In this document: positions 3,223 through 34,427 of the stretch, in pieces
Layout of the letters: each line of letters begins with the position of its first letter
How positions within the stretch are numbered: position 1 is the first letter of the stretch
Assembly: GCA_903847095.1 (NCBI GenBank)
Contig: CAINCQ010000024.1
Coordinates: forward strand, 190,618-233,050
Direction of reading: 5' to 3'
Length of the DNA: 42,433 nt
From: an uncultured bacterium
Lineage (GTDB): Bacteria; Patescibacteriota; Minisyncoccia; Minisyncoccales; UBA5738
Made by a program: the position numbers and the translations under genes
The notes under the pieces: generated by a model
What the model saw: the letters and a program-made list of their open reading frames with translations, nothing else
Told to the model about the DNA's origin: nothing
Database searches by the model: none

Positions 3223-3323
3223 GTTTGTTACAGCGGTTAACGGCGGCTCTCGGATACGCCTTCATCGCGGATGGCTTGCAGCATTTTTATAAGATCGAGC
3301 GTTCAAGGGGAAAAAGCATTGAT

Positions 3324-3349
3324 ACGGCCTGAAAGCCCGCCGTTTTTTA
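3324..3349 (+). terminator. Terminator-like hairpin with no obvious gene before it
   Basis: ACGGC (3324-3328) pairs with GCCGT (3339-3343), followed by a T run. Bases 3223-3323 before it hold no convincing gene; they may be read-through sequence or an unrecognised short RNA. Confidence 0.45.
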
Positions 3350-3361
3350 TTGAAATCGCGG

Positions 3362-3389
3362 TTGACAAAGGGGTTGGCTGGCTTATACT
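3362..3389 (+). promoter_or_regulatory. Strong promoter of the 6S-like RNA
   Basis: A consensus TTGACA at 3362-3367, a 16-base spacer and TATACT at 3384-3389. The expected start, six or seven bases downstream, falls at 3395-3396, exactly where the long closing stem of the predicted RNA begins. No protein gene follows. Confidence 0.75.
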
Positions 3390-3394
3390 TAAAG

Positions 3395-3521
3395 TACCCT
3401 GTTTTGGATAGCAAGTTCCAGAATAACTTTTTTTCGGGAGCCGGATATGCTTGCAATCCTCGGATTGCGGCTTGGGCACCCACCTGGTATTTACCGGACA
3501 CTTGTCTTCCAAGACGGGGTA
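3395..3521 (+). ncRNA. ssrS: Candidate 6S RNA
   Basis: A strong promoter drives a non-coding stretch of about 127 bases that ends before a terminator. The ends pair: 3395-3408 with 3508-3521 forms a 14-bp stem with two G-U pairs, continued by GCAAG/CTTGT (3411-3415 with 3501-3505). An open central region follows. On its 3' side is a small hairpin, CTGGT/ACCGG (3484-3488 with 3493-3497). On its 5' side is GAGCCGGATAT (3438-3448), close to GAGCCGATAT, the template in E. coli 6S RNA where product RNA synthesis starts. A GCAATC/GATTGC hairpin caps the molecule. A closing stem, a bubble with a 3' hairpin and a 5' template are the 6S plan, an RNA that holds the sigma-70 polymerase. Length is short for the family (about 180), so the call is a candidate. 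Confidence 0.55.
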
Positions 3522-3530
3522 TAAAAACAT

Positions 3531-3555
3531 CCGCGCTTCAAGGCGCGGGTTTTTT
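3531..3555 (+). terminator. Terminator of the 6S-like RNA
   Basis: CCGCGC (3531-3536) pairs with GCGCGG (3543-3548) around a six-base loop, followed by G and six T. It begins about 10 bases after the closing stem of the RNA. Confidence 0.85.
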
Positions 3556-3570
3556 CTAAAAACAGCCTTC

Positions 3571-3614
3571 ATTGTAAACAAAAAACTCCGTTTTCGGAGT
3601 TTTTTGTTTGCAAT
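3571..3614. terminator. Large bidirectional terminator between the 6S-like RNA and tRNA-Pro
   Basis: Arms 3571-3590 and 3595-3614 form a 20-bp stem (one G-U) with a TTTT loop. A and T runs lie inside the arms, so both strands can form a terminator. It stops the plus-strand RNA and the minus-strand tRNA transcript. Confidence 0.75.
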
Positions 3615-3654
3615 GAATTTACTCATTAACTCACCACTCATCAACTATCCGCAT

Positions 3655-3725
3655 TCGGGCTGCCGGGAATTGAACCCGGGTCGTACCCACCCCAAGGGTA
3701 TATACTACCGTTGTACTACAGCCCG
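3655..3725 (-). tRNA. tRNA-Pro (anticodon GGG)
   Basis: Read on the minus strand, a full cloverleaf forms. The acceptor stem is CGGGCTG with CAGCCCG, followed by U8 and A9. The four-base D stem has one G-U pair. The anticodon stem TACCC/GGGTA encloses a loop with anticodon GGG, the variable loop has four bases, and the T arm is CCGGG, TTCAATT, CCCGG. The discriminator is A73 and the CCA end is not encoded, so a CCA-adding enzyme is needed. The C1-G72 pair agrees with the bacterial tRNA-Pro identity. It lies downstream of the bL28 gene on the same strand. Confidence 0.92.
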
Positions 3726-3818: not shown

Positions 3819-4016
3819 CTATTTGATTTTGTTTTTCGCGAGGGTTTTGATGCATTTGGCGCAGGCCTTGGTTTTTTCTCCCGAAGGCAACGTCAATGAC
3901 TGCAGATTGGGGTTCTGTTTTCGTTTGCAGGTCGGATTATATTTGGTCGCCCTCAATCTTACTCTCCGCCAAACAATTTTTCCGCGTTTGCCGCAGATTG
4001 TGCATTCTTTAGACAT
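3819..4016 (-). CDS. rpmB: Ribosomal protein bL28
   Basis: The 65-residue product begins Met-Ser-Lys-Glu-Cys-Thr-Ile-Cys-Gly-Lys-Arg, the N-terminal signature of bL28. The usual middle segment, with Arg-Lys-Gln-Asn-Pro-Asn-Leu-Gln, and the C-terminal Lys-Ala-Cys-Ala-Lys-Cys-Ile-Lys-Thr-Leu follow. Two Cys-X2-Cys pairs suggest it is a zinc-binding form. The protein sits in the large subunit near the E site. The ATG follows a short leader with no good Shine-Dalgarno. It is the only ribosomal-protein gene here outside the main cluster and on the minus strand, transcribed toward tRNA-Pro. Confidence 0.88.
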   Translation of the reverse strand: MSKECTICGKRGKIVWRRVRLRATKYNPTCKRKQNPNLQSLTLPSGEKTKACAKCIKTLAKNKIK

Positions 4017-33740: not shown

Positions 33741-34427
33741 ATGATACCTTTACCCCTGACACCAAAAATAGTTGAGCGAAAAGGCAATTGGGCTGTAATA
33801 GAAATCGAGGCTCTTTATCCGGGATACGGCGTGACTGTGGGAAACGCCTTAAGGAGGGTTCTTCTTTCTTCGTTGGAGGGGGCCGCAGTGGCTAAGATCA
33901 AGATCAAGGGGGTACCCCATGAGTTTTCAACGATTTCAGGGGTAAGCGAGGACGTTATTACGATAATGTTGAACGTCAAGCAACTTCGGTTCAAAATGAC
34001 CGGAGAAGAACCGCAGGTTTGTGTTTTGAAGGCCAAGGGAGAAAAGGATGTGGTCGCTAAGGATTTTGAGATTCCTAGTCAATTGGAGCTGATGAACCCG
34101 GAAGCCCATGTTGCGACGATGACCGCTAAAACCGCTAAACTCGAAATGGAACTTACGGTAGAGAGGGGCATCGGCTATACATCGAAAGAAACGAAAAAAA
34201 AGGAAAAACTTGAGATTGGCGTGATGTTGTTGGACGCGATCTATACTCCGATAAAGAAAGTCGGTTTCAAGGTTCACAATATGAGGGTGGGAGATAGGAC
34301 CGATTACGATAAAATCTTGTTGGAAATCGAGACCGATGGAACCGTTACACCCGAAGAAGCGTTTATCAAGGCGTCGGAAATTATCGTAAACAATTTTTCA
34401 TTATTAAAAGAAGCTTTCGTAAAGTAA
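33741..34427 (+). CDS. rpoA: RNA polymerase alpha subunit, N-terminal domain only
   Basis: The 228-residue protein has the dimerisation and assembly domain: Gly-Tyr-Gly-Val-Thr-Val-Gly-Asn-Ala-Leu-Arg-Arg-Val-Leu-Leu-Ser-Ser near residue 30, Gly-Val-Pro-His-Glu-Phe-Ser-Thr-Ile near 57, and the C-terminal Thr-Asp-Gly-Thr-Val-Thr-Pro-Glu-Glu-Ala. It stops at about the end of this domain, with Leu-Lys-Glu-Ala-Phe-Val-Lys then TAA. The usual linker and C-terminal domain (about 85 further residues in E. coli) that binds UP elements and activators is absent, and no frame with its signature follows before rplQ. Assembly of beta and beta' should still work. Confidence 0.93.
   Translation: MIPLPLTPKIVERKGNWAVIEIEALYPGYGVTVGNALRRVLLSSLEGAAVAKIKIKGVPHEFSTISGVSEDVITIMLNVKQLRFKMTGEEPQVCVLKAKGEKDVVAKDFEIPSQLELMNPEAHVATMTAKTAKLEMELTVERGIGYTSKETKKKEKLEIGVMLLDAIYTPIKKVGFKVHNMRVGDRTDYDKILLEIETDGTVTPEEAFIKASEIIVNNFSLLKEAFVK

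Follow-up and report, generated by a model that had tools for sequence, protein, structure and literature searches.

A compact variant of 6S RNA in a Minisyncoccales genome and its relatives among CPR bacteria

Does a CPR bacterium, a member of a group of tiny, gene-poor cells that are thought to be mostly host-dependent, carry a 6S RNA, the open-promoter mimic that holds back the main RNA polymerase on a global scale? The question is raised by 127 non-coding bases (3395-3521, plus strand) in the window, that is, the whole stretch of 42,433 nucleotides analysed here, for which a first-pass annotation had proposed a 6S candidate shorter than typical for the family. The usual length of 6S RNA is 160-200 nt, and 6S-1 of B. 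subtilis has about 190 nt. As suggested by our comparative sequence analysis, the locus very probably encodes a compact 6S RNA as an independent gene, with its own sigma-70 promoter and intrinsic terminator; the polymerase mechanism of this RNA would follow by homology. It is referred to here as a variant, because it scores below the Rfam cut-off and does not reach the length of the described family members.

The gene is preceded by a sigma-70-type promoter (3362-3389, plus strand), in which TTGACA (3362-3367) and TATACT (3384-3389) are separated by a 16-bp spacer and match the consensus in 11 of 12 positions, in agreement with the earlier call; the predicted transcript start lies at about 3394-3396. 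The structured part of the RNA is closed by an outer stem of 14 bp, formed by 3395-3408 with 3508-3521, and by an inner stem (P2/downstream duplex) in which GCAAGT (3411-3416) pairs with ACTTGT (3500-3505); both had been recognized in the first pass, the second as GCAAG/CTTGT. Inside these stems lie the 5' central bubble (3417-3435), whose 19 nt equal the median length in relatives, an apical, -35-like arm of 46 nt with a CTCG loop (3436-3481; GGGAGCC...GGGCACCC), and the 3' central bubble on the -10-like side (3482-3499), with a hairpin CCTGGTATTTACCGG at 3483-3497 and a motif CACCCACCTGG that fits the RF00013 consensus. The earlier description of an open centre with a small hairpin on its 3' side holds for the hairpin but leaves out the apical arm. 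An intrinsic terminator follows on the plus strand (3529-3556), with a stem at 3529-3550 and then a T tract, close to its first placement at 3531-3555. The 6S RNA at 3395-3521 is a stand-alone, single-copy gene with its own promoter, and the rod formed by the closing stem, the open 5' bubble facing the 3' bubble strand and the apical arm has the architecture of 6S RNA.

A second strong hairpin (3578-3610, AACAAAAAACTCCGTTTTCGGAGTTTTTTGTTT), flanked on each side by A and T tracts, is located between the 6S terminator and a convergent tRNA-Pro gene and is probably a bidirectional terminator. Between 3520 and 3660, weak matches to models of leaders and other RNAs were attributed to the two terminators.

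The minimum free energy of 3395-3521 is -57.2 kcal/mol, as compared with -33.8 +/- 3.4 kcal/mol for shuffled sequences (z -6.9; 0 of 200 shuffles equal), so that the folding proposed as a check revealed a structure far more stable than shuffles. In the nearest relative, a member of the same genus with 89% identity, the fold is preserved (z -5.2), and there are consistent pair changes together with frame-breaking 1-nt indels. Open frames do cross the region (3350-3559 on the plus strand, 3262-3501 and 3303-3644 on the minus strand), as would be expected if the segment were coding and its fold fortuitous, with no functional RNA at all. However, the 1-nt indels of the nearest relative fall inside these frames, homologues range from 103 to 160 nt (median 129 nt in 65 relatives), and the conserved protein frame that the first-pass annotation had named as a ground for rejection was absent. 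With a z-score of -6.9 and compensatory changes, which refute a chance fold, this explanation is barely credible.

An Rfam search of the whole window at gathering thresholds returned only a tRNA, and a search of its own genome with RF00013 at default settings gave no match. At a relaxed threshold, the Rfam 6S covariance search proposed earlier was successful: RF00013 matched 3393-3524 end to end (model positions 1-187; 27.9 bits, E 2.3e-4), including GGGAGCC and GGGCACCCACCUGG. This score lies below the gathering score of 46.4 bits, which is an annotation cut-off and not a biological property, and Rfam itself would therefore not list the locus. No other Rfam family was found in 3395-3521 by the relaxed search, except for a chance-level CRISPR-repeat match.

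A covariance model built from the window and its same-genus nearest relative (R1) revealed homologues within the order and the class of the window, as well as CPR loci found independently by RF00013 at the identical place and on the identical strand. R1 also matched the opposite strand of the window at 32.8 bits, an effect of the self-complementary rod being read in reverse. From 25 relatives, none of them from the genus of the window, a second model (R2) was made, and it matched the window at 3393-3527 with 125.1 bits (E 2.9e-29). This was the sole significant place in its own genome (next 18.9 bits, E 0.73), and the four remaining family genomes had one locus each; outside the genus, BLASTN had returned nothing from three family genomes, all of which were later found by the covariance model. 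The CPR loci L010-L013 were matched both by RF00013 (55-60 bits, above its cut-off) and by R2 (34.7-50.1 bits), and two Aquificota loci above the RF00013 cut-off, L163 (63.4 bits) and L129 (51.8 bits), were matched by R2 as well. E. coli ssrS gave no match when searched with R2, and the bridge to accepted 6S RNA thus runs through RF00013 and Aquificota. The sequence at the junction of bubble and apical arm (GGG...CACCCACCU), a mark of 6S RNA, is conserved, and the homology to 6S, as judged by the covariance models, is full-length and statistically significant. Pattern matches from Gammaproteobacteria, Prevotella, Natronorubrum, Methylobacterium and comparable taxa were not confirmed by the covariance search and were taken as chance.

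The sub-threshold score with RF00013 alone, and the weak scoring of neighbourhood hairpins against many models, would also suit a structured sRNA or leader of other origin whose likeness to 6S is fortuitous. We consider this very improbable, given that a model free of the window reaches 125 bits at one significant place in the genome and is transitively linked to accepted 6S loci, and that the RNA shows covariation and has its own promoter and terminator. It also leads no adjacent gene, since both the downstream tRNA-Pro(GGG) gene (3655-3725) and the gene for a ribosomal L28-like protein of 65 aa (3819-4016; 24.1 bits, just under the Pfam cut-off of 27) are located on the minus strand.

Covariation across relatives was examined on the structure derived from the window. 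In 25 other sequences, double changes occurred in 36 of 41 pairs, paired cells amounted to 87.4% (55.6% when shuffled) and the covariation score was 0.724, as opposed to 0.188 when shuffled and 0.075-0.142 with slid partners; alignment of the relatives to the model somewhat inflates the pair counts toward the structure, but the slid controls show the effect to be far larger. With 65 sequences the score was 0.735. The compensatory changes sought in the closing stem are present: double changes affect 11 of 11 pairs of helix 1 (94.8% paired) and 3 of 3 of helix 2 (78.8%) in the outer stem, and all 6 pairs of the inner stem (helix 3; 85.6%). The 3' bubble hairpin was counted as helix 8. At the base of the apical arm, the pairs between GGG (3436-3438) and CCC (3479-3481) are conserved without exception (64 of 64 relatives), and the arm measures 45-49 nt in 63 of 65. 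A MAFFT alignment of divergent CPR 6S sequences analysed with RNAalifold recovered the apical arm and the hairpin alone, because the stems misalign. Of 61 CPR homologues, 54 have a TATAAT-like hexamer (at least 5/6) in the 25 nt that precede the RNA (12.4 +/- 3.2 in shuffled sequences), and 38 are followed by terminator-like signals (0.6 in shuffled sequences). Hence the 6S identity advanced in the first pass is borne out by the end-to-end RF00013 match, the CPR model and compensatory changes in nearly every helix, and further by homologues above the Rfam cut-off, by the conservation of promoter and terminator and by the recurrence of tRNA-Pro as a neighbour. With about 23 nt per strand, the arm may have roughly the reach that is required between the -10 side and the -35 contact of sigma, and CPR 6S may accordingly be trimmed to that span.

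The product-RNA template had been assigned in the first-pass annotation to GAGCCGGATAT, as part of the open centre, and this assignment was not upheld. The segment (3438-3448) belongs to the 5' strand of the apical arm and falls in GGGagccc at the start of that arm in the RF00013 alignment, about 20 columns downstream of E. coli GAGCCGAUAU, which covers the inner stem and the 5' bubble. Alignment to U44, which we take to be the E. coli numbering of the product-RNA start, suggests a start near U3424 (+/- 2 nt) at low local posterior. The template would extend from about U3424 down to about 3411, with 5'-AUUCUGGAACUUGC as the predicted product, which would begin near AUUCUGGAAC if the template starts at U3424. 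In silico blocking of 9, 12 and 14 template nucleotides progressively opened the inner stem (2 of 6 pairs left with 12 nt blocked and 0 of 6 with 14), and the outer stem and apical arm held. This modelled behaviour fits the mechanism of 6S release without being evidence of it.

The transcript would start at its own sigma-70 promoter, end at the intrinsic terminator and fold into the rod that covariation shows. By homology with the 6S family, the bubble and the apical arm would then act as a mimic of an open promoter and engage the RpoD-RNA polymerase holoenzyme, which would use the 5' bubble strand as a template from about U3424 and make a short product RNA. Synthesis of this product would open the inner closing stem (3411-3416/3500-3505) and release the enzyme. 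Polymerase binding, a product RNA and a growth-phase role of CPR 6S are what we infer on these grounds.

The sequence of the 5' bubble varies among CPR relatives, and the conserved template that their alignment had been expected to show is not evident. Such variability would be in keeping with a 6S-shaped RNA that has changed its partner, either binding the core enzyme without sigma or being bound and left untranscribed, and that stores or inhibits the enzyme otherwise. A precedent for 6S-like rods on core enzyme is provided by Ms1 of mycobacteria, which binds core polymerase without sigma (PMC9130861, PMC11077062). Ms1 of Actinobacteria is similar to the window RNA in shape and in its 6S-like, polymerase-binding nature (PMC9130861), but differs in its sigma-free target, and no sequence sign of kinship between the two was detected here. 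Moreover, conservation in the CPR relatives is strongest in the canonical parts of 6S, namely the CACCCACCU motif of the 3' bubble and the base of the apical arm, with an arm length that is nearly fixed, and RF00013 is the Rfam family matched apart from the one chance-level match. A changed partner is therefore improbable, and a 6S RNA acting on the sigma-70 holoenzyme is preferred.

With E. coli ssrS and RF00013 the window RNA shares the rod, a CACCU-containing 3' bubble strand, a stand-alone gene and end-to-end alignment to the model. It differs in length (about 127 nt versus 183 nt), in an apical arm of 46 nt versus about 72 nt in E. coli, counted between equivalent points, in its sub-threshold RF00013 score and in the small hairpin that is predicted for its 3' bubble when the RNA is free. 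Such a hairpin is present in free 6S-1 of B. subtilis (PMC8876501). The same RNA, trimmed to the bubble with a pair of short arms, remains able to cycle in vitro at an affinity about ten-fold lower (PMC8876501), which makes a short 6S mechanistically plausible. Release of B. subtilis 6S-1 proceeds through a central bubble collapse helix, in which the window RNA may differ. The Aquificota 6S RNAs (Persephonella, Hydrogenothermaceae; L129, L163), which are found by RF00013 above its cut-off and by the CPR model, share the core GGGAGCC...GGCACCCAC, but exceed the window RNA in length (about 170 nt, as measured in RF00013 coordinates) and in RF00013 score. Against the 6S reading we count the sub-threshold RF00013 score, the length of about 127 nt, the blindness of the CPR model to E. 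coli 6S and a product start that derives from a low-confidence alignment.

The polymerase subunits were also considered. The alpha subunit encoded by rpoA (33741-34427, plus strand; 228 aa) is without its C-terminal domain, with no match to that domain in Pfam, as the first-pass annotation had remarked. 6S RNA acts through sigma and core, as established for E. coli, and this alpha subunit does not therefore count against 6S. The genome encodes an RpoD-like sigma factor of 410 aa, whose best NCBIfam matches are RpoD, below their cut-offs; a putative housekeeping sigma-70, as 6S RNA calls for, is thus represented.

The convergent tRNA-Pro gene of the window is a recurrent neighbour of 6S in CPR. 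Among 122 homologous loci examined, a tRNA lies no more than 1.2 kb downstream in 36, and the first is tRNA-Pro in 31 of these, 20 being convergent with GGG as in the window and 11 in the same orientation (L113, L077, L071, L084, L015, L151, L104, L120, L047, L045 and L068 are included in the tRNA-Pro tally). At L113 (762-970), L077, L071, L084 and L015, the same-strand tRNA-Pro follows 0-20 nt after 6S with no evident terminator between them. Given this near-zero gap, the two RNAs may share a transcript, in which 5' processing of the tRNA would set the 3' end of 6S. A further-reaching and rather unlikely interpretation extends this to a CPR branch of polymerase-mimicking RNA beyond a short 6S, with the arm held at 45-49 nt; in some lineages, the joint transcript with tRNA-Pro would couple polymerase storage to tRNA maturation, and the target would perhaps be the core and not the sigma-70 polymerase.

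The distribution of the compact 6S was surveyed in 380 evenly drawn genomes of the phylum with fast filters, for which reason absences are not proof of loss. RF00013 found 31 of the 380 genomes (4 above its cut-off), R2 found 147, and a broader CPR model (R3) found 165 at E<=0.01 and 141 at E<=1e-5; in the false-positive control, 150 Actinomycetota genomes searched with R3, there were 5 matches at E<=0.01 and 0 at E<=1e-5. Nealsonbacteria, Staskawiczbacteria, Yonathbacteria, Vogelbacteria, Berkelbacteria and Saccharibacteria are among the named carriers. Related compact 6S copies are thus detected in at least a third of the sampled CPR genomes (at least 37-43%), nearly all missed by the standard model.

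Two 6S-model matches (R2, 44.1 and 29.8 bits) were observed in one CPR genome (G058, contigs C16 and C1), possibly as two 6S paralogues or through contamination. Weak matches of the CPR 6S model (L186, L187, L188; 30.6-36.7 bits) were also observed in a few genomes of Actinomycetota, a phylum from which 6S has, to our knowledge, been reported as largely missing.

That some CPR genomes contain 6S already follows from RF00013. Our literature search found no paper joining 6S RNA with CPR, Parcubacteria or Saccharibacteria (a match for Patescibacteria concerned another topic), and the compact form and its breadth appear to be undescribed in the literature searched. The public 6S model misses a branch of the family, and the natural size limit of this branch suggests what a working 6S minimally needs. 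The breadth of the compact 6S would imply that reduced CPR cells keep growth-linked control of transcription.
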